Shown here piece by piece: positions 207-21,705 of a stretch of DNA of 22,886 nt (position 1 is the stretch's first letter; each line of letters starts with the position of its first letter). The position numbers and the translations under genes are program-made. This DNA comes from Polaromonas sp. (GTDB taxonomy: Bacteria > Pseudomonadota > Gammaproteobacteria > Burkholderiales > Burkholderiaceae_C): positions 1 to 22,886 of the forward strand of contig JAJAYS010000095.1 of the NCBI GenBank assembly GCA_026786065.1, read 5' to 3'. The notes under the pieces were generated by a model. That model saw nothing but the letters and a program-made list of their open reading frames with translations, did no database searches and had not been told where the DNA came from.

Positions 207-3200
207 TTAAGCAGAACAGGTTGCCTCAGTCGCACAGTACTGTCGAACGAGCCTAATCAACTCCTCTTCGGAGTAGGGCTTACCCAGGTAATTGTCAACT
301 CCGAGTTCCATCGCGTATTCGCGATGCTTCGCCGCGATGCGCGAGGTAATCATGATGATCGGCAAGGACTTGAGACGGGCATCGGCGCGAATATTTCGGG
401 CCAGATCGAATCCGTCCATCCGCGGCATCTCGATGTCGGACAGGACAACTGATGGCAGCTCATCTTGCAGTCGCTCGAGGGCCTGCAAACCGTCTGCGGC
501 CATGGCCACACGGAATCCTTCGCGTTGCAACAGCCGCTGGGTCACGCGCCTGACCGTGATCGAGTCGTCCACCACCAAAACCAGCGGAACCTTTGACGGC
601 TCGGACGCTGCCATCTTGACGCCACCACCCACCGAGTCCTCGGTCAACACCATGCGTTGATTAGCTGTCGCCCAAGCGCGCGCTCGAACTCCATAAATCG
701 AGGCCAATGCCACCGGGTTGTAAATCAGAACAACGTCACCAGACGCCAGCACCGACATGCCTGAAAGACCGGGTAGGCGCGACAATTGAGGACCGAGATT
801 CTTGACCACCACCTCCTGGTTGCCGATGACTTCGTCAACATGCAAGGCCAGCCGCTGATCGGCGCTTCGAAAAACCACCACTGGCAGCGTTTTGGTCGCA
901 GGCTCGGCGCTCTGAAACGATGCCTGCAACAAAAGACCCGACCAGAAAAAGGGTAAGGCAGAACCCGCAAGTTCGAAGGTGCCCGACGCATAGGCGGCCT
1001 GCAAGTCGTTCGCGGAAACCCGCCGCACCGTCTCTATAAGGTGGGCCGGTACGCCAATGGAAAGGGCTCCTGACCGAATCATGACCACTAGTGTCACTGC
1101 AGTCGTCAGCGGCAGCACCAGCTTGAAATGCGTGCCTTTACCAACGACAGTATTGGTCTCGATCCGACCACCAAGTGCTTGCACCTCAGAGCGTACAACA
1201 TCCATGCCGATGCCCCGACCCGCCAATTCTGTGATTTGTGCTGCCGTCGTGAAACCAGGCAAAAAAATCAGGTCTGCGGCCTGCTGTTCGGTCAACACCG
1301 CATCAGCCTCGATTAAACCCTGCGTAACCGCCTTTTCTTGAATCTGGCGGATATTCAGGCCGCTACCATCGTCGCTGAAATCGACCGAAACGTCGTTTCC
1401 CTCATGTCTCAGGTGGACAGCGATCAAACCGACCGGATCCTTTCCGGAAGCTTCGCGGGACTCACGATCTTCGATGCCATGCGCCACACAGTTCCGAAGC
1501 AGGTGCTCGAAAGCCGGAGTCATACGGTCGAGCATCCCTCTGTCCATCTCGATGGTCCCGCCCAGCAGATCCAGCTTGACTTGCTTGCCGGTGTCTTTGG
1601 ACGCCTGCCGTACTACTCGGTAAAGTCGATCCGCGATACTTTCGAACTCGACCATTCGCGTGCGCAGAAGGTCACGCTGCAACTCGCGAGTCTGACGGGC
1701 TTGTGCGATCAAATCATCTTCTGTGGCCTCAACCGTGCGTTGCAAGGTACGCTGCACCGTCGCGACGTCGTTGACCGACTCCGCCATCATCCGAGTGAGT
1801 TCCTGAACGCGGGTGAAGCGATCAATCTCCAACGGATCGAACCCAGCCTGAGCCTCTTTGGCTTGGGCCAGACGGGATTGCATCTGGGTTTCCGCCTGGA
1901 GTTCGATGTCGCGAAGATGTTGGCGAAGGCGATTCAGGTTGCTATTCATGTCCCCCAAGGAACTTCTCAGCTGCATCAACTCGGCTTCGAGTCGCGAGCG
2001 GGTGATCATGACTTCGCCCGCCTGGTTTACCATTCGGTCAAGCAATTGCGATCGTACGCGCACGGAAGCCCCCGCAGCCTGGCGCACCGAGGCCATCACC
2101 ATTGCCTGCGGCGGGGGGATGAGAGTTTTAGTGGGGGTGTCGGCTAAGGCAGCGGCGACCCGTAAGGTCTCTCCCTGCTCTATTTCCAGCGATTTAATAA
2201 TACTTGCCGAGCCCTCGAGCAGCGAACTACTCCTGAGAGCCACTGCCGGATTTTCATGCGAGAAGTCAATTTGGTCGCGAACCGACAACTGGTCAACCGC
2301 AGAAGAGCCGCTGAGGTCCACTGAGGTCATCCAGGCCTGCGCTTCAACTTCCGCGCCATTCGTCCCGCGGCTGACATCGTCCCCCATCCCAATGTCAGAC
2401 TGGCAGACGCCCGTGTCGCACAATGAGTCAAAGACGTTTTGCATCGCGTCGAATCGGACCAACAACTCATCAAACTCGTCGGCGGGTGGAGGCTCGGTAC
2501 CCAAAGACTCAATTTGGGACTCGATCCTATGGGTCAATTCACCCAAGCGCATCGCACCGGCCAGGCGCGAGCTGCCCTTTAGCGTATGGAGGACCCTGAG
2601 CACCTCTAGGCGAGCTCTTTGGTTATTGGGCCTGCCAGCCCACTGACGCAGCGCACCGCCCAGCTGGGGCATCAACTCTTTTGCTTCCTCCTCGAAAATC
2701 GGGAAGAGATCTGGATCAATCGCGTCGATCGCGTCGATTGCTTCGATTCCAACCTGATCGGACAGATCTTTCAACTCGCCAACGAGGGGGAGCAATACAG
2801 AAACATCTCGATCCAACACCTCAGGACTTGACGGGACTGCTGACACCTTTAAGACCGTTTGTACTGTCCCGATTGGCTCAACAACAACTACTTCGGGAGT
2901 TGTGGCGCAAGCAAGAGTGTTTAAAACTGCTGACGGCATCAGCGAGCTAGAGAGCAGCTCCTTTGAAGCCGTCATCAAGAATTGAGGCGCTTTATCTGCC
3001 GGCGGCGTATCAAAATCGCTCGACTCATTCGAAGAGTTCGAGATCGAATCAGGAAAATCCAGGTTCTTGAGTTGCTCCAACATTTCCGGGTCAGCCTCTT
3101 TGAGAAAGCCAGCGGCGAACTGATGAAGCAGGCGGCGAATTTCTTCAGAAGTGTTCGAGAACAACGCTGAATAAGCATGGTGCGGAGCTGAGTAATGCGA

Positions 3201-6200
3201 CTGCGATTTTTGCAACGCGCGTTCGAACATCCTCGCAATGCTGGAAAGGGCCTGAAACCCTACTGTGGCCGAGCTTCCCGCAAGGGAATGCGCCAGAGCG
3301 ACCGTCGTGTCACTGACCGGCCGATCGACTTCAAGCGCCCACTCCCCAATTTCAGTTACCAAACGGCGTGACCATTCGTCGGCTTCATTCAGATAAACGT
3401 TGTAAAGCGGAATGCCGATACGCAAAGCGCCAATGACCCTGACCTGCTCTTCATCCTCGGTTTCGGTACCCGCGTCTGTGTCTAAAGCGTGGTCAGCGGG
3501 CTCGCGGTAAATCGAGATCGGCCAAGCCGACAAATCATCTAATTCAGCTGCTGACGTCAGTGCAGGGTCCAGGCTCACTTCCCTGACCGGCTCGTCCAAG
3601 GAAAACGAGCGGCTGCCTGAAAGCAGCGGCGTTAGATTAGTAGGTAGGTTTTCAGTCTGAGCAATTGCATCAGCGAAAAACCGGTCGGCTGCCAGCGCTT
3701 CCCGCTCCCCGTCCTCCGGCAGTCCGAACAACGCATCGAAATCCACGTCCTCAATGCTCTGTACCTCGTCGCCAGCAACTGGCATCGTTGGCGAAGCCGG
3801 GAAGGTCAGCGCATCGAGAGTCGCCTTAGGTCTGCCGTCATGGCCCAAAAAGCCAAAGTCGGCACCGCCTGAAAAAATCGGAGCAGTCAACTCCCCGCTG
3901 CCTTCGATCTCGGGCGATAGTTCACCTGAGAGAAACTCCCCAAGATCGGTAGCCTCGTCAAGTTGATCAAACTTAGAACTCTGTTGTGAACCCGGCTCAA
4001 GGGCAGGGCTTGGTCGGCCTTGCTCAGAAACCGCTAATCCACCCGACAACCCTGCATTGGAATGGGGTTGGGCTAGGCTCTTTGGAGCCAAGGCCACATA
4101 GGTTTCGGACGCACGCATGGCGTCGGCACTGGTCGAAAACGGAAGCGAAGACCAGCCAGCTTCATCGCGTGAGGCGATGGCGGAAATCCAGGACTCAAAC
4201 TCGCCCAATGCCTGCAGCATGAGAGTCCTGAAATCGGCACTGGCTGGTTTCTGATCTGCAAGCCAGCTGTTGTTAAGTTTCTCGAAAGACCAAGCGGCAT
4301 CCCCAAACTGCTTGAGCCCGACCATCCGCGAACTTCCTTTCAGAGTGTGGAAAGCTCGACGCAGAACAGTCAGCTCCAAAACGTCGCCGGGATTGTCTGC
4401 CAGCTTGGACAAAGCCTCTGATGCTGCGGCCACCACTTCTCGCGCCTCTTCGAGGAAAATCTCCTGCAGATCATCTTCGGTAAATGTGCTCGGCTCGGAC
4501 TCGTGCGACCCATCGACCTGCAACGCTGTCGGCTCAACCGTCAGGGAAGCCGCCCCCTGCCAAGAAAAATCGGAGCCCTCTGCACCCAACGCCAGATTTT
4601 TGGTCGCAAGCACCTCGATGTATTGTTGTGCGTCCAAGGAAGGAGCGGCTGCCCCGGAGTCCACAATTTTTGCGGAAGAGGGCTCGGCGCCAGAGTCTGA
4701 CATTGGGTTCGGTGCTACAGAATCGGAACCGTCGACGGCCAGCGAACCCCCAAGCGCTTCGGAAAAACCAGAAAGTGAACGCTTGGCACGCCGGCCCATG
4801 ATCGGCTTAAGCTCACCCACTTGCTCGTCGAACACGAACAGCTTCTTGGTCAAAGCAGGTTGATAGTTCAACATGTCGATAAGGAAACTCAGGGAACCGA
4901 CGTTATTGCCCAATTGGTCAAATGTGCCAGCGGCACTGGCCTGCTCAGCATTTACGTCCGTATCAAGCATCTGCTCGACGCTCTCGCGCATACGCAATAC
5001 GGTATGCGCAGCTTGGTCCAAACCAAGAACCGACAGCACGCCACGCATCTGCGAAAGCTGACCAGGAACCGCTTGAAGGGAGCTCTTGTCTTCTGGGTTG
5101 CGGAAAAAAGCATCCAGGCCTTTCTCCAATTCGCCTAAAGAAACCCGCAGCTCCCCAACAACGCTACCCATTGTTTGCTTGTCGCTGATCCGGCCGTAGA
5201 GTTCCTCCATCCACGATTCCAACGGCTGCGGTTCACCTCCCGCGCGGACTCCTTCAAGGCGTTCGGCCAGATTTCGCGTACGGACTTCGAGCAGCGGGTC
5301 ATTTGGATCGAGATCTTCGAATACCGCCTCGAGATACATGACCGATGTCGCAACCTCCATTGCCAGTTCGATGCGGGGGGGTTGCGCCAATTGAACCGTG
5401 CTGTGGATTGCTTGGGTTAATGCCTGAGCGAGAGGGCCACTGGCAGGATGCAATCTGATAAGCGAATCTGCGACCAGGCTAAACTGGTCCGAAACGCTTT
5501 TGAATTTGTTGACATCACCTGCGGACACCGCCGACCAAGTGTCCTTGGCTGCGGCGATACGCTTGCGCGCTTGAGAAAGAGTTGCCGGGTCAAATCGACC
5601 GAACTGAACCAACTCATAGTCAACAAATCTATGCGCATCAAGGCCATACAGTTCCCGAACTACGGCAAGAAGCGGGATTCCGTCAGCGCCCGAAGCTCCC
5701 GCTTGCGCGCAAAAGAAAATCAAGTCCTGGGCCAGACGGTCTGACACCTCCTCAACACCCTTCGCCAAGGACGCATACTGCAAAAGGATTCGGGAACTAG
5801 CGCGCTTTACATAAACGTCGGGTTTAAGCACATCTTGCGCCAGCGCTTCAAAAAAAGCGGCCGCGAGCTTCCAAAAAATCCTGGGTTGCGATCTCGTCTG
5901 TCCAGCGGAAAAACCGAGACACAGGTCGCGCAGGGTTTGTGCCGAATCCGGTGATCTCCCCTTCATCAAGGGAAGAATGGCCCGATCCAAAAGGGCACGG
6001 GAGTCCGGCCCATAAAAGAGAGCCGGTCGGTCTTCCGGATATTTCGGGTCCAGCCATCGCCATTCGTGAGACCAAAGGTCGGCGGGATGAATCCGCTCCG
6101 CCCGCACGATCTCTTGAATTTCGCGGTACTGAGGAAACAAGGAAATCGAAGAGACCGGGCGATTCGACAGCACCCCTTGCAAGTACTCGGTCAACGCGAA

Positions 6201-6557
6201 GCTGGCCCGCTCCAACTTGGTAGAGGCGTCTGCCGTGCAATTTTCAGGCTGTTGGACAAACCTTTGCACCGCAGCTTCCATACCCTTCAATAACATCGCC
6301 GGCGCCGGCAATCCGACCATCTCAAGGGCACCGACAGACTGGTGCAGTTGCTGGCGGGCAATACGCAACTGACTGGAGTCAATCGCCGCGAGGTCGGACC
6401 CTCGAGCAACTTCGGCGTCCCGGACAAATCGCTTCATGGCTTTAACCGCACCTTCAAGCGATTTGCGCAACTCGTCAATCACCCATGCCAGCGGGCCCAG
6501 ATCGTTGAGGCCAAGCTCCAGGTCTGCCGCTTGGGAGGGGGATGCGTTGGATTGCAT
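207..6557 (-). CDS. chpA: ChpA/PilL-type hybrid histidine kinase of type IV pilus chemotaxis
   Basis: This 2116-residue CheA-like kinase is the core of the Chp (twitching motility) pathway; it passes phosphate to PilG and PilH. The N-terminus is FimL-like with a degenerate Hpt segment around H72. Another Hpt-like segment near residue 500 has no histidine. Three Hpt domains carry good phosphorylation motifs: H737 (HTLKGSSR), H1090 (HSLAGSS) and H1324 (HTLKGSSR). A dimerisation region near 1500-1620 is followed by the ATPase with N1689 (LLRNCVAHGIED) and glycine boxes (DDGSGLN, GRGIGMD). A CheW-like domain lies at about 1800-1955. A C-terminal receiver follows, with the VVDDS acidic cluster, D2041 as phospho-acceptor and a late lysine in the KPYS motif. 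ATG at 6557 lies 53 bp after the pilJ stop, so it is probably cotranscribed. No pilK methyltransferase or chpB methylesterase gene follows. Family assignment is firm; Hpt activities are inferred. Confidence 0.95.
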   Translation of the reverse strand: MQSNASPSQAADLELGLNDLGPLAWVIDELRKSLEGAVKAMKRFVRDAEVARGSDLAAIDSSQLRIARQQLHQSVGALEMVGLPAPAMLLKGMEAAVQRFVQQPENCTADASTKLERASFALTEYLQGVLSNRPVSSISLFPQYREIQEIVRAERIHPADLWSHEWRWLDPKYPEDRPALFYGPDSRALLDRAILPLMKGRSPDSAQTLRDLCLGFSAGQTRSQPRIFWKLAAAFFEALAQDVLKPDVYVKRASSRILLQYASLAKGVEEVSDRLAQDLIFFCAQAGASGADGIPLLAVVRELYGLDAHRFVDYELVQFGRFDPATLSQARKRIAAAKDTWSAVSAGDVNKFKSVSDQFSLVADSLIRLHPASGPLAQALTQAIHSTVQLAQPPRIELAMEVATSVMYLEAVFEDLDPNDPLLEVRTRNLAERLEGVRAGGEPQPLESWMEELYGRISDKQTMGSVVGELRVSLGELEKGLDAFFRNPEDKSSLQAVPGQLSQMRGVLSVLGLDQAAHTVLRMRESVEQMLDTDVNAEQASAAGTFDQLGNNVGSLSFLIDMLNYQPALTKKLFVFDEQVGELKPIMGRRAKRSLSGFSEALGGSLAVDGSDSVAPNPMSDSGAEPSSAKIVDSGAAAPSLDAQQYIEVLATKNLALGAEGSDFSWQGAASLTVEPTALQVDGSHESEPSTFTEDDLQEIFLEEAREVVAAASEALSKLADNPGDVLELTVLRRAFHTLKGSSRMVGLKQFGDAAWSFEKLNNSWLADQKPASADFRTLMLQALGEFESWISAIASRDEAGWSSLPFSTSADAMRASETYVALAPKSLAQPHSNAGLSGGLAVSEQGRPSPALEPGSQQSSKFDQLDEATDLGEFLSGELSPEIEGSGELTAPIFSGGADFGFLGHDGRPKATLDALTFPASPTMPVAGDEVQSIEDVDFDALFGLPEDGEREALAADRFFADAIAQTENLPTNLTPLLSGSRSFSLDEPVREVSLDPALTSAAELDDLSAWPISIYREPADHALDTDAGTETEDEEQVRVIGALRIGIPLYNVYLNEADEWSRRLVTEIGEWALEVDRPVSDTTVALAHSLAGSSATVGFQALSSIARMFERALQKSQSHYSAPHHAYSALFSNTSEEIRRLLHQFAAGFLKEADPEMLEQLKNLDFPDSISNSSNESSDFDTPPADKAPQFLMTASKELLSSSLMPSAVLNTLACATTPEVVVVEPIGTVQTVLKVSAVPSSPEVLDRDVSVLLPLVGELKDLSDQVGIEAIDAIDAIDPDLFPIFEEEAKELMPQLGGALRQWAGRPNNQRARLEVLRVLHTLKGSSRLAGAMRLGELTHRIESQIESLGTEPPPADEFDELLVRFDAMQNVFDSLCDTGVCQSDIGMGDDVSRGTNGAEVEAQAWMTSVDLSGSSAVDQLSVRDQIDFSHENPAVALRSSSLLEGSASIIKSLEIEQGETLRVAAALADTPTKTLIPPPQAMVMASVRQAAGASVRVRSQLLDRMVNQAGEVMITRSRLEAELMQLRSSLGDMNSNLNRLRQHLRDIELQAETQMQSRLAQAKEAQAGFDPLEIDRFTRVQELTRMMAESVNDVATVQRTLQRTVEATEDDLIAQARQTRELQRDLLRTRMVEFESIADRLYRVVRQASKDTGKQVKLDLLGGTIEMDRGMLDRMTPAFEHLLRNCVAHGIEDRESREASGKDPVGLIAVHLRHEGNDVSVDFSDDGSGLNIRQIQEKAVTQGLIEADAVLTEQQAADLIFLPGFTTAAQITELAGRGIGMDVVRSEVQALGGRIETNTVVGKGTHFKLVLPLTTAVTLVVMIRSGALSIGVPAHLIETVRRVSANDLQAAYASGTFELAGSALPFFWSGLLLQASFQSAEPATKTLPVVVFRSADQRLALHVDEVIGNQEVVVKNLGPQLSRLPGLSGMSVLASGDVVLIYNPVALASIYGVRARAWATANQRMVLTEDSVGGGVKMAASEPSKVPLVLVVDDSITVRRVTQRLLQREGFRVAMAADGLQALERLQDELPSVVLSDIEMPRMDGFDLARNIRADARLKSLPIIMITSRIAAKHREYAMELGVDNYLGKPYSEEELIRLVRQYCATEATCSA

Positions 6558-6610
6558 ACTTGACGGGCCGTTCAGAATTCGAAGAGGTGATCCAGGGCGA
6601 AGATGGAAGC

Positions 6611-8911
6611 TCAGGCGATTTTGAATCGCGATACCGATTGCCGCAGCTCTTCCGCGATGCGAGAAAGGTCCCGAACCTGCAGGGCAGTCGAGCGCGTCCC
6701 CTCTCCCGTTTGCTCGGTCACGGCGAAAATATGCTGAATGTTGCCTGCAAGCTCGTTTGCCGACGCCGCCTCCTTGGACGTGGCGCTCGAAATCTGTGTA
6801 ATCAGGTCAGCCAGCCGCCTCGAAACCTGGTCGATCTCAGATAGCGCGGTGCCGGCGCTGTCTGAAAGTCTGGCCCCCTCAACGACGCCCTGTGTGGACC
6901 TTTCCATGGCGGCTACCGCGTCTTGCGTATCGGTCTGAATTGCTTTGACCAGCGCAGAAATCTGCCGCGTTGCATCAGCCGATCGCTCAGCAAGTCGCTG
7001 CACCTCTTCCGCCACGACGGAAAACCCGCGCCCGGCTTCGCCGGCCGAGGCAGCTTGGATAGCGGCATTCAATGCCAGCACGTTAGTCTGCTCGGTAATA
7101 TCGGAGATCAAATCGGTGATCTCGCCAATCTCCTGCGAAGATTCTCCGAGACGCTTAATGCGTTTCGACGTTTCCTGAATTTGATCTCGAATGGCATTCA
7201 TGCCGCCAATCGCGTTTTGCACCGCAGTCAAACCGGTCTCTGCCGCTGCAAGCGATTGCTTGGCGACTTCAGAAGAAGCGTTCGCCTGCGTGGAAACGTC
7301 ATTAATTCGGGATGCCATATCAAGTACCGACTGACCGGTTTCGCGAATCTCTCGCAATTGCTCAGTCGATGCAGCAAGCAGCTCAGTCGAGGTACTGTCA
7401 ACTTCGGCCGTCGTCTGCGCCACACGAGTGGCGGTAATCTGAACGTTGCCAACAAGCTGCCGAAGCTCTTCAACCGTGTAATTCACGGAGTCTGCGATGG
7501 CGCCGGTAATGTCCTCAGTCACCGTAGCCTCTTGCGTCAGATCGCCCTCTGCGACTGTCTGCAACTCATTCATTAATCGCAAAATGGCCGCCTGGTTGGC
7601 ATCGTTGACGCGTTTGGCGTCCTGCTCCAGATTCATCGCCTCCTTACGCTGGGTTTCGGCAACACCCTGCCGTTGCTGACTGTCTTGAACCTGTAAGCGC
7701 GCCAAACCCGCTCCGCATAGCAAGGCGATAAATGCGGCCCCAATCAGCGCCGTGAGCGAGGCCGCGCCAAGACCAGTTTCGGAAGAAAGCTTTACTTGCA
7801 ATTCTTCAAGAGTCACGCGCAATGGTTCACTTTCTTTAAGAATCGATGTCTGGGCCTCGCGGGCCGAGACCAAACCCTGTAAATTCCCCAGAATCGAGCC
7901 GGCTTGCACCCGGGTTTGCTCGTAAAGGGCGATCAGCGCCGTCAGGCGTTCACGAATTTGCGGGTCTTTGGTAGCGCTGAGGCGTAATTCGGGGCTGCCA
8001 TCCAGCAAAGCTTGGGATATCTCTTTGAAAGAGTTCAAGTCCTTGCCAAGCAGAAACACGGCTTCCGGACTTACGCCCTCGGTGGTCAAAAACTCATTCG
8101 CGGACTTGCCGATTCGCTGCGTCAACATCACGAGCTGGCCGGCCGCCGAAATCTCCGCCACAGCAGCATTTTGCTGAAGCTTTAGCGAAGAAACGGTTTC
8201 GGCAATTTCCAGCAGGTCGGAGGATTGCCGATTTATCGTACGCAGCGCACTACCCACCTGCGTCAGGATTGCCTGTTGGGCCATCACCGTCTTGGCATCT
8301 TTCTCCGCGCGCTCCATCATGGGTATGGTTTTTTGCAACTCGGGCTGATGCTCGTCAGCAAGCGGCCTCAAGCCCATAGTCGCGTCGCCGACACTAAGGC
8401 CACGAATGGCTTTTGCAAATACTTCTGCGCTGTTACGCACGTCGCCGAATGCGGGGGCGTTGCCAATCATCGCTTGCGAAACCGATTTCGCCAGCCGCTG
8501 GGCTTGCATCATCGACTCGCCAGTGCTGGCAACCTGCTGTGCAACGCCGCCCGCGCGATCCAGCGCGAAATAGGCAACGACGGCGAGCACCATGAGAGAC
8601 GATGCCAAAACGGCACCAAGAATCTTTTGATGCTGACCAACGGTACGTCGGCCCAAAACTGGAAGCGCAAGCAAGTCTGGATTGACCGGCACAAGAGGCT
8701 CTGGCTCCGCAAAATGACCAGACGGAAATTCGCTCCCATCGGCAGTAGCCGTCTCAAGGCGTCGGTCAGCAGCGGCGGGCGACGACTCCCATGTCACTGC
8801 CAAGCTCGAATGAACCTCGCTCGGTGAGCCTACCGACGCGGGTTCCAGGCTATCCAGTGGCTCGTTCAACTTGGGTTTAAACATGGTTTGAAAATTATCA
8901 ATTGCGGACAT
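6611..8911 (-). CDS. pilJ: PilJ, methyl-accepting receptor of the pilus chemotaxis system
   Basis: The product is a 766-residue inner-membrane chemoreceptor that feeds PilI and ChpA. The N-terminal cytoplasmic stretch of about 95 residues is rich in Pro, Glu and Ser. TM1 lies at about 97-117 and TM2 at about 378-400; the periplasmic sensor between them resembles the paired PilJ sensor domains. A HAMP-like helical region leads into the MCP signalling domain. Its hairpin tip near residues 600-625 reads [19 protein letters not shown], then [19 protein letters not shown], as in other PilJ proteins. ATG 8911 is chosen because a TTG 24 codons further upstream (8983) adds residues with no family look. 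An AAGG lies about 10 nt before the ATG. The 190-bp gap to pilI holds no gene that I can see. Confidence 0.95.
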
Positions 8912-9101
8912 AAGGAAAGCCTTGTGGAAAAACGAAAGGCCAGAGGCTAGCGGGCTTGCTGAAATACTGGCTTCTGACCTCAAAACCGCTGCAAAAAGTA
9001 GTTGTTTACCCCTTACCGCTTTTGGAAAAAACGCTTGTGGGCCGCTGTGCTAGGTCAAGGTTTTATGAATTGAGAGTTTCGATGAGTATTTCAGCCGCCT
9101 G

Positions 9102-9632
9102 CTAGGCACCTATAGTCAAAAAGTGCGCCTCTTGCGCGAGCTTCTGGAGATTTATTTCCTGCCACGTTACGCCTTTGAAATCAACGTAACTATTGCCGAA
9201 AAAATCGGGTGCATCGGATGCGCGTCCAGAAAAATCACAAAACATGCCTTGGTTTCGAAGGCCGGAAAGACGGTCGATCCACAAAGCACAGTTCACTTCG
9301 AGCGCACTATTCAATAATACGAAACGCGATTCAGAACACGCGGACTCGGAGAGGCCGAGCTTTGGCTCGCCACTTACAAAGCCGGCGAGATCGACCACGC
9401 CGACCAATCGACCACGCAAGTTGGCAACGCCGACAAACCAGCCTTGCGTGTAGGGGACAGGCTGCAGCGCAGCCCAAGGAAATATTTCCCCAGACTGAAC
9501 CAATGGAAACAGATACTTTTTATCGCCGGCCTCGACGGCGAGCCACGCTGCAGCAACACCTTGAGTACGGGCAACCTGCAGGCGATCAGCCAATCGCATC
9601 TGCAAATCCCGTAGCGCTTGCTTGTTCGCCAT
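9102..9632 (-). CDS. pilI: PilI, CheW-like adaptor of the pilus chemotaxis system
   Basis: A 176-residue protein made almost entirely of one CheW domain, which couples the PilJ receptor to ChpA in the cytoplasm. Visible CheW features are the strand after AAAWLAVEAG, the PVPYTQGWFVGVANLRGRLVG core (the usual G-x-x-N-x-R-G-x turn) and VVDLAGF. ATG 9632 lies 18 bp after the pilH stop, within the pilGHIJ-chpA operon. The length matches PilI of other proteobacteria. The C-terminal ~50 residues (Phe- and Asp-rich, ending HFLTIGA) are also typical of the PilI group. Confidence 0.93.
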   Translation of the reverse strand: MANKQALRDLQMRLADRLQVARTQGVAAAWLAVEAGDKKYLFPLVQSGEIFPWAALQPVPYTQGWFVGVANLRGRLVGVVDLAGFVSGEPKLGLSESACSESRFVLLNSALEVNCALWIDRLSGLRNQGMFCDFSGRASDAPDFFGNSYVDFKGVTWQEINLQKLAQEAHFLTIGA

Positions 9633-15337: not shown

Positions 15338-15651
15338 TGGAGTCGTTCCTGTATCAAGAAATGGAAGGGTCAAACAAGCGGGTCGCTGACGGCAGCCGCC
15401 TCGTCAAAAGGAGTGCGGCCACCGTCCAATAATCAGCGAATATCTTTTGTGTTTTAGGCTTACGGCCCAATGATTAAGGGCGTAAGCAGCTACGTTTTTT
15501 ATAGCGACTGGAGCCGCTTTCCGAGGTTTTTCGGCGGGTCTGTCGGCACGAACAACGGGCCCAGGCAATCAGTCCGGCTCAGCCGATCTGGCAGACGACC
15601 AGCTTGCCGGGCCGTACCAAAAAATTTGCGGTTTGCGTGGACTTTTCCGGG
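15338..15651. other. Intergenic region between the two GH8 genes
   Basis: This 314-bp gap holds no convincing gene. It must contain the 3' end signals of the lipoprotein GH8 gene and probably the promoter of the secreted GH8 gene. A hairpin repeat occupies 15465-15505. No good T-tailed terminator for the upstream gene was found on the minus strand, so read-through from the first GH8 gene into the second is possible. The operator-like repeats upstream of the lipoprotein GH8 gene are not present here. Confidence 0.5.
15465..15505 (-). repeat. Interspersed hairpin repeat, copy 1
   Basis: On the minus strand a 17-nt hairpin with GCTAT and GTAGC arms is followed directly by TGCTTACGCCC, then TTAATCATTGGGC. 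It aligns without gaps over 28 nt to the copies at 17762-17789 and 21008-21035 (shared pattern GCTAT-N7-RTAGC-TNNTTACGCCC). It matches the third copy for 9 of 13 further bases. A second imperfect stem joins GCTTACGCCC to GGGCCGTAAGC (15458-15487). Confidence 0.7.
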
Positions 15652-17010
15652 TCATGGGTTCCACCAGTTGCCGGAGGCGACGATCAGGCTGAGCAGCTGC
15701 AGCTCGGTGCCGTAATACCCGGTTGAGAGGTTATTGCTGGAGTGGGTCCAGAGGCTGTTGAGAAAGGGCTGGAACTTCGCATCAACCATCGCGCCCGCCG
15801 TGGCGGGGCCAACGAAGGTCGGTGACGGATAGCCCGGAGCCATCGGCGTACCGCTGAGGGTGTAGCCGCCACTGAAGTTGGCCGGCTGGCCGCCAGTCGC
15901 CCGCTGGAAAAAATCGGTCAGCTTGGCCGTGACGACTTTGGATCGTTCGTCGCCGGAGGTGACGTAGTCCGATGCCAGGCGCCACGGGATGCGGCAGGCG
16001 TTGTACGAATAGTCGTCTTCAAGCAGGTTGCCGTCGCCCATGTAGCCGGGGGAAGGAATCGGGTCTGAGTGGGTGTTGACGATGAAGTCGGGAATCAGCC
16101 CGGTGTCCGGTGCGAACCTGGCTTGCATCAGGTTGAGCAATTCGAACGACTTGTCGGTAGCCAGGTCCCAGAACGCATCGCCGGTGGCGCGCTTGAATGC
16201 CTTGAAGTGGGTGATCATGTAGTCCGACGTACGGCTGGTGTTCCAGGTCCCCAGGCCGGTCGTGAAGCCCTGCGGGTTCATGTTGCGGCGCTTCATCGCG
16301 TCGATCGTGGCGAGCGCTTCCTTTTTGTAGTTGACCCTGCCGGCCGAGCCCCACTGCCGGTCTGCCATCAGCAGCGCCATCGCAATGTCCAGATCGCCAT
16401 CGACCGCGTTCCAGCCGCCACCGCCGCTGGTGCAATCGGCCTTGACCCGCCACTCCATCAGCGCCGGCTCGTTCAGGCCGTAGGCCGGAAACGAGCGGGC
16501 CACCCGAAACAGGCCGTCGAAAAGCGTTTTGGCCTGGGCGTCGTAACCGGCCATCACGACCGAAAGCAGCATGCCGTAGCCGGCACCTTCGGAAACGCTG
16601 GCGTATTCGTTGCTGAACACCGCGACATAGCCGCCGCAGCGGCTCTGCACACCGGTCTTCCAGGAGTCGTACTGGGTGCGGATCAGTGCATCCTGCGCGG
16701 CCTGCGTGGACGAAGTCGGCCGAATCCCCGCGACGTACGCCTTTTTATGGGAAGCAAAGGGGTAACCCAGGCCATTGGCGCCGGGCGTAAAAGTGGTGTC
16801 GCTGCCGGCTCGCGCCGGAGCGCTGGAGTCGCTGCCGGCTGGCGCCGGAGCGCTGGAGTCGGTTCCGACGCTGGCCGAAAAACCCGCTACGGTAGTTGCG
16901 CCGGCAGAGACGGCTCCCTGTTCGGCTCCTCCGCCGCCACCACCGCAAGCCGATAAGAATCCAGTAACCGCGAGCGCGACACTGGCCCATGAGAGTGCAA
17001 ACGTTTTCAA
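15652..17010 (-). CDS. Glycoside hydrolase family 8 lipoprotein
   Basis: A 452-residue GH8 enzyme without binding modules. The lipobox LSAC ends at C22 and is followed by six glycines, so the protein is probably membrane-anchored after lipidation. A Ser/Ala/Pro spacer with a duplicated 10-residue unit (about 45-68) leads to the catalytic domain. E141 in SVSEGAGYGM is the likely acid catalyst and D204 lies in WNAVDGDLDIAMALL. The domain ends exactly at GNWWNP, where the neighbouring secreted paralogue continues into its linker. The start is taken as TTG 17010 because GGAGG lies 8 nt upstream and the frame then opens straight into the signal peptide. GTG 17076 would put 22 unrelated residues ahead of it. 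Leader and operator-like elements lie upstream. Confidence 0.88.
   Translation of the reverse strand: MKTFALSWASVALAVTGFLSACGGGGGGAEQGAVSAGATTVAGFSASVGTDSSAPAPAGSDSSAPARAGSDTTFTPGANGLGYPFASHKKAYVAGIRPTSSTQAAQDALIRTQYDSWKTGVQSRCGGYVAVFSNEYASVSEGAGYGMLLSVVMAGYDAQAKTLFDGLFRVARSFPAYGLNEPALMEWRVKADCTSGGGGWNAVDGDLDIAMALLMADRQWGSAGRVNYKKEALATIDAMKRRNMNPQGFTTGLGTWNTSRTSDYMITHFKAFKRATGDAFWDLATDKSFELLNLMQARFAPDTGLIPDFIVNTHSDPIPSPGYMGDGNLLEDDYSYNACRIPWRLASDYVTSGDERSKVVTAKLTDFFQRATGGQPANFSGGYTLSGTPMAPGYPSPTFVGPATAGAMVDAKFQPFLNSLWTHSSNNLSTGYYGTELQLLSLIVASGNWWNP
16801..16860 (-). repeat. 30-bp tandem duplication in the GH8 lipoprotein spacer
   Basis: Two adjacent 30-bp units differ at a single base (CTCGCG versus CTGGCG, plus strand). 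Each encodes ten residues of the Ser/Ala/Pro spacer after the lipid anchor. The duplication keeps the frame. Confidence 0.85.
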
Positions 17011-17015
17011 AAAAA

Positions 17016-17145
17016 CTCCCTCCGGTTGATCTAGGCAGACTCGGCTGTCGTCCCGGCAGATCACCGAAGGGAGCACGACCCGCGCCCAGCCCGCCTCGCG
17101 GCGGCCACCTGGCGTGGTCTGAAAAGCCCTCCCTCGCTGCGATCT
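17016..17145 (-). promoter_or_regulatory. Structured leader with terminator over the SD and a competing antiterminator
   Basis: In minus-strand RNA, segment 2 (17073-17058, CTCCCTTCGGTGATCT) pairs with segment 3 (17032-17016, AGATCAACCGGAGGGAG). This gives a stem of about 16 bp with one bulge and one G-U pair. Segment 3 contains the SD of the GH8 lipoprotein gene, and seven T follow directly and run into the TTG start. The stem is therefore both terminator-like and SD-sequestering. Segment 1 (17145-17129, AGATCGCAGCGAGGGAG) nearly copies segment 3 (AGATC-N5-GAGGGAG) and can pair with segment 2 instead. Just upstream, 17174-17159 forms a 6-bp stem capped by a GCGA tetraloop. I did not recognise a known riboswitch class. 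Switching is inferred from pairing only. Confidence 0.6.
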
Positions 17146-17216
17146 TCAGGCAACCCGTCTGGCGTCGCCGCCAGCAAGTCTGTGTTTTTGGAAAACCGCG
17201 ATGGTAAGCGAGGCCT

Positions 17217-17234
17217 TGTAAGCTGGCTCTTACA
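17217..17234. promoter_or_regulatory. Operator-like inverted repeat A
   Basis: TGTAAG-N6-CTTACA, with perfect 6-bp arms. It lies 207 bp upstream of the GH8 lipoprotein start and fits the shared pattern TGTARG-N6-CYTACA. The binding protein is unknown. Confidence 0.5.
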
Positions 17235-17239
17235 CTCAA

Positions 17240-17257
17240 AGTAGGACAAAACTTACA
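17240..17257. promoter_or_regulatory. Operator-like inverted repeat B (degenerate)
   Basis: AGTAGG-N6-CTTACA starts 23 bp from site A. It matches the TGTARG-N6-CYTACA pattern except at the first base, and its arms pair imperfectly. Confidence 0.4.
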
Positions 17258-17271
17258 TAAGCAAACACTCT

Positions 17272-17289
17272 TGTAGGTGAAAACCTACA
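17272..17289. promoter_or_regulatory. Operator-like inverted repeat C
   Basis: TGTAGGTGAAAACCTACA: perfect 6-bp arms at the same 6-bp spacing. The seventh base pair (T/A) also matches. Confidence 0.55.
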
Positions 17290-17373
17290 GCAAATCTCGA
17301 CTTTCAAATGGAAGGTGCGTGCGGTCCCGGCCAAAGGTTCATTGTTTTAACGTAGGACGAAGTTCCGAAATCG

Positions 17374-17391
17374 TGTAGGAGATTACCTACA
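17374..17391. promoter_or_regulatory. Operator-like inverted repeat D with flanking half-sites
   Basis: TGTAGGAGATTACCTACA: perfect 6-bp arms. A left half-site (CGTAGG) starts 23 bp before it at 17351. A right half-site (CCTACA, 17409-17414) sits where the right arm of a site starting 23 bp later would fall. This 23-bp phasing equals that between sites A and B. Confidence 0.55.
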
Positions 17392-17414
17392 TTTAACCGC
17401 GTTCTACCCCTACA

Positions 17415-17747
17415 AGAGGCAAAAGTTTGGCGGAAGAAAGGGGTATGAGACCAGGCGTTGCAGCGAGGACTCCCGCGGGTCTCGAAGTTCGCTCAAAAAG
17501 CCCCCCTGAATTTGTATCTTTCAAGTCCTAAACCGGACCCCGCCCGCTTGTTACGACCCGGAGCCACCGTCTCGTCTTACATTCCCTTGGCTTACACAAC
17601 CAATTTTTACGCTTAAGGTCCTTTTACAGGCTGTTTGGCCGCATTTACCCGTCGCGGCATTGCAATTTCTTGGCGTGGCAGAAGGTGAAGTTCTTTCCTG
17701 AGTCGGTTGAATCAGGCGGCGACAAAATAGGCATCAAAACCTTGTTT
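17415..17747. other. Non-coding stretch with no recognised feature
   Basis: No gene-like frame is seen between the operator-like sites and the hairpin repeat before the Lrp gene. Two CTTACA half-sites occur at 17576-17581 and 17591-17596 without partner arms. A CCCGCGGG palindrome lies near 17473. I could not assign a function. Confidence 0.4.
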
Positions 17748-17761
17748 TTATCACTAATAAC

Positions 17762-17789
17762 GGGCGTAATTAGCTATGAAGTTCATAGC
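17762..17789 (-). repeat. Interspersed hairpin repeat, copy 2
   Basis: GCTATGAACTTCATAGC followed by TAATTACGCCC on the minus strand. This copy has the most perfect hairpin. An extra outer stem (CGGGCGT at 17761-17767 with ACGCCCG at 17792-17798) makes a 38-nt structure. It lies about 150 bp downstream of the Lrp stop codon. No T run follows on either strand, so it is not an obvious terminator. Confidence 0.7.
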
Positions 17790-17935
17790 GAACGCCCGAA
17801 GCCTGAATAAGCAGTGCAGCAGGTCGCCTAAGTCAGGCCGAGCGCAAGCCGCAAGGCGCGATGCAGAGCGTTCCCAACGTTTCCCATCGCCTTTTGGGGT
17901 GTACGGCAGACGCCCAAGCGCCGCATTCGCCCACA

Positions 17936-18418
17936 TCAAAGGGTGATGGTGCCGACGGTCCCCAGCGGCAGCGCGGTTTTATAGCGCACCTGCTTCAGCG
18001 CAAAGCTCGAACGAATCTTTTCGATGCCAGGAATTGGCGTGAGCTGGTTCAGAATGAATTTTTCCAGTGCGGCGATGTCCGCCACGGCCACCCGAATCAG
18101 GTAGTCGCTGTCCCCGGTCATCAAATAGCACTCCATCACTTCGTCGTGCTCAACGATGCGGCGCTCGAATTCGGCCAGCGAATCCCGGTTTTGCGAACGC
18201 AGACTTATGGAAATAAAGACGCTCAGGCCCAGCCCGAGCGCCGCCGCGCTGGCGAGAGCCACGTAGCGGTCAATCACTTTTGCGGCTTCGAGCGCCTTCA
18301 CCCGGGCCAGACACGGTGACGGGCTCAAATGCACCCGCCTGGCCAGCTCGACGTTGGACAGCGCGCCGTCGCGCTGTAATTCGTGAAGAATCTTCAAATC
18401 GGTTTTATCAAGCTGCAT
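17936..18418 (-). CDS. Lrp/AsnC-family transcriptional regulator (MdeR-like position)
   Basis: A 160-residue regulator. The N-terminal helix-turn-helix runs from about 3 to 50: LDKTDLKILHELQRDG, then LSNVELARRVHLSPSPCLARVKALE as the recognition part. The C-terminal ligand-binding/oligomerisation (RAM) domain runs from about 65 to 145 and includes CYLMTGDSDYLIRV. Family members bind amino acids and assemble as octamers or dimers. ATG 18418 gives the usual length. The gene is divergent from the 2-oxoacid dehydrogenase E1 gene with 104 bp between, so it probably controls that gene and itself. In Pseudomonas putida the Lrp-type mdeR lies beside mdeA and mdeB (an E1 homologue); the similarity here is of arrangement and is not proof of orthology. 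Confidence 0.9.
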   Translation of the reverse strand: MQLDKTDLKILHELQRDGALSNVELARRVHLSPSPCLARVKALEAAKVIDRYVALASAAALGLGLSVFISISLRSQNRDSLAEFERRIVEHDEVMECYLMTGDSDYLIRVAVADIAALEKFILNQLTPIPGIEKIRSSFALKQVRYKTALPLGTVGTITL

Positions 18419-18441
18419 AGGCCGTTTAAACTTTATTTCAA

Positions 18442-18454
18442 GGCATTTTATGCC
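18442..18454. promoter_or_regulatory. Candidate Lrp-type operator
   Basis: GGCATTTTATGCC is a perfect 5-bp inverted repeat around TTT in an AT-rich stretch, 24 bp from the regulator's ATG. Lrp-family sites are often short, AT-centred palindromes between divergent genes. Assignment is by position only. Confidence 0.35.
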
Positions 18455-18477
18455 GCTTTATTGCCGATTAATGGCTT

Positions 18478-18511
18478 TTTACGCAGCATGTTTTGCTTGC
18501 AGCTGCGTAAA
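18478..18511. promoter_or_regulatory. 10-bp perfect inverted repeat upstream of the E1 gene
   Basis: TTTACGCAGC and GCTGCGTAAA are exact inverse copies separated by 14 bp, ending 11 bp before the E1 ATG. It could be a second operator in the divergent region or a 5' hairpin in the E1 mRNA. There is no T run, so it is not a terminator. No SD is visible between the repeat and the ATG. Confidence 0.45.
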
Positions 18512-18522
18512 CTGGTTTCACC

Positions 18523-21705
<3,183 letters not shown>

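Follow-up and report, generated by a model that had tools for sequence, protein, structure and literature searches.

What does the RNA leader of a glycoside hydrolase family 8 (GH8) gene do when its last hairpin buries the Shine–Dalgarno (SD) sequence and its U tract runs into the start codon? The question arises in a 22,886-nucleotide stretch of Polaromonas sp. DNA, the whole of which we call the window, in which a GH8 lipoprotein gene occupies 15652–17010 of the minus strand (identified by PF01270, E 7.4e-23, and by its translation). The gene starts with TTG at 17010–17008, encodes a signal peptide with the lipobox LSAC (FLSAC in the translation) and has the SD GGAGGGAG at 17023–17016. An earlier note, made from the letters alone, had described three leader segments that form mutually exclusive stems and had suggested a transcription attenuator or riboswitch, with ribosome-mediated attenuation as an alternative. 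Here, by computing the helices of the leader, their order of preference at equilibrium and the burial of the SD, we arrive at a tentative model, resting on predicted folds, of a cis-acting, default-off attenuator in the GH8 5′ leader that would be conditional through segment 1 and a further strand, strand 0.

An Lrp/AsnC-type regulator gene (18418–17936) lies upstream in the same direction, separated from the GH8 gene by 925 bases. Downstream is a second GH8 gene, an open frame at 15373–13184 with a long C-terminal extension, which is 53% identical to the first over query residues 81–452 and in whose own leader neither the segments nor the dyads described below recur. Elsewhere in the window, the minus strand of 207–9632 carries genes for a CheA-like protein with three Hpt stretches, a PilJ-like receptor and CheW, and resembles the chemosensory clusters of type IV pili.

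The hairpin at the SD and start codon

All three segments lie on the minus strand where the earlier note had placed them. Segment 2 (17073–17058) is the 5′ arm of a terminator-like hairpin and is common to two helices, 1:2 and 2:3, named here by the strands that they join; segment 3 (17032–17016), the 3′ arm, contains the SD. Together they form a stem of 16 pairs that buries the SD and runs straight into seven U, encoded by the T run at 17015–17009 (T7), the last two T of which are part of the TTG start codon. The lone mismatch of the DNA arms is, as had been claimed, a wobble pair in the minus-strand RNA only (U17067–G17022), and to that description we add a one-base bulge, A17027. The duplex energy of 2:3 is −25.6 kcal/mol, and the 25 bases between its arms fold in part.

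When the body was shuffled around a constant segment 3 and T7, an equally strong partner appeared in 0 of 3,000 shuffles (mean −13.9, s.d. 2.0, versus −26.5 observed). The GH8 start also ranked first for a hairpin of the 2:3 type among 272 predicted open reading frame starts, which were picked by a simple rule that gets some of them wrong, from frames of at least 250 codons in the window and the fetched loci, with the window start included and nine loci that copy the region excluded. Of these 272 starts, 2 have an uninterrupted run of at least six T nearby. The leader as a whole (17200–17009) folds at z −2.81, with 1 of 200 shuffles equally good.

Set beside a Rho-independent terminator, the hairpin has the G+C-rich stem, ending at 17016, followed by six or more U; a short loop of 3–8 bases is missing. 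A simple terminator scan of 16900–18600 did not return hairpin 2:3, because it permits only loops of that size, and a simple consensus scan of both strands of the same interval returned no sigma-70-like promoter (0.7 in shuffles).

Competing helices in the leader

Segment 1 (17145–17129, minus strand) is a near copy of segment 3 and can pair either with segment 2, as an antiterminator-like helix, or with strand 0. The latter (17191–17213, comprising 17213–17207 and 17199–17191 of the minus strand), which the present analysis adds to the three segments seen before, is anti-antiterminator-like and makes 16 pairs with 17147–17132. Helix 0:1 encloses the GNRA-capped hairpin of the earlier note (17152–17180, minus strand), in which the stem 17174–17169/17164–17159 carries the loop GCGA at 17168–17165. 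The capture of segment 2 by segment 1 that had been proposed is feasible, with duplex 1:2 computed at −19.0, weaker than 2:3. Two sites in the organism’s own genome, both of them here, match exactly the word that segments 1 and 3 share, AGATC-N5-GAGGGAG, and one further site matches it with one mismatch. Each taken alone, the two pairings and the likeness are only moderately unusual: the strength of 1:2 was matched in 88 of 5,000 shuffles, that of 0:1 in 144 and the likeness of segments 1 and 3 in 168, and a looser shuffle test matched 0:1 in 266 and 1:2 in 275 of 3,000.

Partition functions of growing transcripts, computed from four assumed 5′ ends (17335, 17235, 17216 and 17200), show these helices replacing one another: 0:1 is present until segment 2 has been made, 1:2 until about 17024, and 0:1 together with 2:3 from then on. 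The order is identical for all four ends; from 17200, where strand 0 is partly missing, 0:1 is weaker. These folds represent equilibrium, not kinetics. When the two states were compared, as the earlier note had suggested, the minimum free energy was −105.8 kcal/mol for the terminator state and −93.7 kcal/mol when the antiterminator state was imposed by constraint. In a test that was set up after the structure had been seen, a chain of 0:1, 1:2 and 2:3 in which no helix has fewer than 12 pairs, segments 2 and 3 being kept, arose in 12 of 1,200 shuffles, and in 59 when the minimum was 10 pairs; the pair counts of 15.0 (1:2) and 17.5 (0:1) were equalled in 0 and 1 of the 1,200. The attenuator-like architecture of the earlier note is thus fuller than had been recognized, since strand 0 competes for segment 1, and the leader is predicted to have the three overlapping, mutually exclusive helices—terminator, antiterminator and anti-antiterminator, in that order—expected of an attenuator of this kind.

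For the working of such an attenuator, we infer termination, use of 1:2 in the cell and the existence of a signal. Strand 0 would pair with segment 1 first as RNA polymerase advances, and segment 1 would switch to segment 2, giving the antiterminator form, once segment 2 emerges. On emergence of segment 3, helix 2:3 would prevail and 0:1 would re-form, and the hairpin with its seven U would end transcription at the start codon. In any read-through RNA, 2:3 would hide the SD, such that the gene would be off by default at two levels. It would be turned on by a signal that disrupts 0:1, or that prolongs 1:2 until the polymerase has passed.

This model draws on the strength of 2:3 beyond chance with T7 directly behind it, on the ordered switching, on the chain statistics and on the energy gap between the two states. 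The gap also counts against it: favoured by 12 kcal/mol, 2:3 might simply always win. Further points against the model are the individually moderate 0:1 and 1:2, the post hoc nature of the chain, the G+C-rich leader (64%), the 25-base gap between the arms and the lack of a sigma-70-like promoter in the scan, as well as the failure to find a homologous leader and the quite different leaders behind which the GH8 relatives lie. Were it true, one hairpin made of the gene’s own SD and start codon would block the gene at two levels, adding a second tier of regulation to a secreted GH8 enzyme, a cutter of sugar polymers.

Dyads upstream of the leader

Four tandem 18-bp dyads of the form TGTARG-N6-CYTACA, one of them imperfect and none assigned to a strand, stand at 17217–17391 before the GH8 gene. 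They are TGTAAG-N6-CTTACA (17217–17234), the imperfect TGTAAG-N6-CCTACT (17240–17257) and two copies of TGTAGG-N6-CCTACA (17272–17289 and 17374–17391). After the last of these comes CGATT-TCGGA...TCCTAC, just as it does in the GH8 promoter region of locus L039. The exact pattern occurs at three sites in the own genome (2.93 Mb, 83.56% complete), all within this stretch, with the one-mismatch dyad standing among them; allowing at most one mismatch gives 16 places, versus 3 for the reversed pattern. Judged by their sequence, the dyads are probably transcription factor operators, and with putative operators upstream of it the leader is probably transcribed. Their binder could be a Fis-type regulator of the TyrR/NtrC/PpsR kind, with TGT-N12-ACA sites; the portion of the literature covered by a search for the dyad letters contained no paper about such a dyad.

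Strict TGTAGG-N6-CCTACA is present in 38 of 87 genomes of the genus. In another genus, g122, an 18-mer matching it at 10 or more of 12 positions was found in 27 of 30 GH8 upstream regions, these 30 being the ones examined among 40 GH8 places listed, and 23 of the 27 have the form TGT-N9-CCTACT. The remaining three (L037, L075 and L093) have no such 18-mer, and the starts of L075 and L093 are probably misplaced. Two g122 loci, L039 and L073, have a double dyad arrangement like that of the window, and L039 has the string CCTACACGATT in common with window positions 17379–17369. A GH8 locus of another Burkholderiales genome, L004, carries TGTCAG-N6-CCTACA about 370 bases before the GH8 start, if that start is the ATG at 2740. 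Because GH8 genes in a different genus have related dyads in front of them, the dyad cluster may matter more widely; and because such dyads, rather than leaders, were found before GH8 relatives, the control that appears to be conserved resides in DNA and not in the leader RNA.

These dyads bear on a reading that we consider nearly as likely as the attenuator, and quite possible in its own right, namely that only 2:3 matters: a constitutive hairpin would lower GH8 translation, and perhaps transcription, with strand 0 and segment 1 as chance partners and a factor on the dyads as the regulator. Helix 2:3 alone is overwhelmingly significant, all three exact dyads of the own genome are located here and related ones precede the GH8 genes of g122, as this reading would have it; the chain statistics (12 of 1,200 shuffles) speak against it, as does the finding that no other site in the own genome matches the word of segments 1 and 3 exactly.

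Outside the window, one of the one-mismatch dyads of the own genome (L061, 1501–1518) lies about 100 bases before a Gly-rich lipoprotein-like frame, as read by eye, and it is possible that this gene is co-regulated with the GH8 gene.

Related leaders and known systems

We searched for relatives of both the protein and its leader. The GH8 protein was matched at E up to 0.001 in two of 61 nearby genomes, its own and one with a weak match of 28% identity. A contig scan gave one Burkholderiales metagenome-assembled genome with a GH8 protein at 67% identity (L004, whose contig also carries a fragment, L005). In the family, 6 of 399 genomes, own genome included, had a match at E up to 1e-30, and in g122, 23 of 59 genomes had one at E up to 1e-60. 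None of the leaders of GH8 relatives that were examined resembles that of the window, and the segments are absent from them. Searches with the GH8 protein found no relative in viral contigs and, by tblastn, 13 plasmid records, none of which reaches 60% identity. No plasmid matched a 411-base query spanning leader and promoter.

Weak DNA matches of the leader (E up to 0.1) occurred in 46 of 87 genus genomes, own included. The inspected ones (L007–L035) fall on both strands, match mostly one G+C-rich stretch and, in 28 of 29 loci, are enclosed by stop-to-stop frames of 581 bases or more (231 in L019); we regard them as chance. BLASTN of the 925 upstream bases against 85 fetched loci returned these same weak matches and a few shorter ones, with no GH8 locus among the 20 matches listed. 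A covariance model, R1, was built from the window leader alone, which limits its reach, and was run with strict filters above 40 genomes. It gave nothing below E 1 in 35 loci besides the window (L005, E 3; opposite strand of the window, 1.1), no match in the 86 other genomes of the genus at E up to 0.1 and one match, in G226, among 398 other genomes of the family set, a few of them of the same genus. The E-value of that match, 0.0046, applies to one genome, with 399 searched, and we rejected it as a homologous leader, as it sits within an open frame of 587 codons and lacks a T run. As judged from sequence, the leader is an orphan: no credible homolog turned up among the genomes searched (86 of the genus, 398 of the family) or before the GH8 relatives examined.

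That distribution weighs on readings in which the leader is a sensor. One, which we hold to be rather unlikely, is that the 0:1 domain with the GNRA hairpin is a lineage-restricted sensor of a ligand, an RNA or a protein and sets termination and SD access through segments 1–3; if true, it would be a dual-level expression platform with a terminator built from the gene’s own SD and start codon, serving a polysaccharide-degrading lipoprotein. Slightly less probable is a metabolite riboswitch with helix 0:1 and the GNRA hairpin as its aptamer. In riboswitches, the helix that closes the domain usually shares its 3′ strand with the antiterminator, and the final helix of this domain does so. Riboswitch aptamers are normally conserved across species, and here the earlier suggestion of a riboswitch found no support: no conserved leader was found, and Rfam 15 had no match in the window at gathering score and none in 16950–17860 at E up to 10.

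It is doubtful that the hairpin and its U tract instead end a separate small RNA between the lrp-like and GH8 genes, with proximity to the GH8 start being secondary. The structured stretch of about 200 bases does end in a terminator-like hairpin, and 925 bases separate the two genes, but the 3′ arm is the GH8 SD and the T run includes part of the start codon, tying the hairpin to the gene. Ribosome-mediated attenuation, in which translation of a leader peptide decides which helix forms, is very improbable: the ATG-less frame of the earlier note exists, from TTG 17249 (the first start codon of this frame within 17420–16980, and one lacking an SD) to the stop at 17063–17061 inside segment 2, but the leader start codons, the gene’s own TTG aside, have at most a 4-base SD-like match; 17235–17011 has no ATG and no start codon with a match of at least 4 bases, TTG 17239 has a 4-base match only and opens a frame that overruns the GH8 start, and no leader peptide with start codon and SD, as in a trp-type attenuator, was found. 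Control by CsrA is also unlikely, because csrA was not found (0 matches to PF02599), although the 83.56% completeness of the genome leaves its absence unproven.

The attenuator that we favour has partial counterparts. In the Bacillus subtilis rplJL leader, an anti-antiterminator, an antiterminator and a terminator overlap, and, as in the GH8 leader, the three neighbouring helices share bases and the last is followed by U-rich sequence; there, the L10(L12)4 complex stabilizes the first of these helices and mutations were used to test every one of them (PMC4538822, in excerpt), whereas the GH8 helices are predicted and the terminator-like hairpin has a 3′ arm that doubles as the SD. Mycobacterial rpfB, cited for comparison only and with no sequence relation claimed, starts with TTG, encodes an enzyme that degrades the cell wall and has a candidate switch of the terminator type in its 5′ untranslated region. 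That region resembles the GH8 leader in its terminator and antiterminator, its narrow distribution and, in the excerpt, the lack of a stated ligand, and differs in that its terminated RNA was detected by Northern blot and 3′ RACE (PMC6009663). The excerpted account of B. subtilis vmlR likewise describes an anti-antiterminator, antiterminator and terminator that combine transcription and translation attenuation, driven by ribosome stalling on an upstream open reading frame (PMC9226507); the GH8 leader has no such frame with a fair SD. An engineered RNA regulator also acts on both transcription and translation, as described in part of its report (PMC5435934). Two-level control is therefore already known, and the twist of the GH8 leader would be a modest one, with one arm serving as SD and terminator stem and the U tract entering the start codon. 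A narrow keyword search of the open literature found no paper on glycoside hydrolase family 8 and riboswitches together.

The leaders of g122 GH8 genes have features of their own. RNAalifold on 10 of them, chosen for the word CAGCTCAT or a close form, gave 17 pairs, none changed on both sides, and so no covariation support. Rfam gave 4 matches at E up to 5 in 12 g122 GH8 loci, none within a GH8 leader; one of the 4, at L073 3371–3445, is an SAH riboswitch above gathering score on the opposite strand, about 500 bases beyond the GH8 start. About ten g122 GH8 leaders carry GCTGAGGTT and CAGCTCATCTTTCAACAGG or near variants of these words, and L039, L073, L070, L071, L092 and other g122 GH8 loci have TGTSGGAC-N3/4-TCCTACTACA in common.
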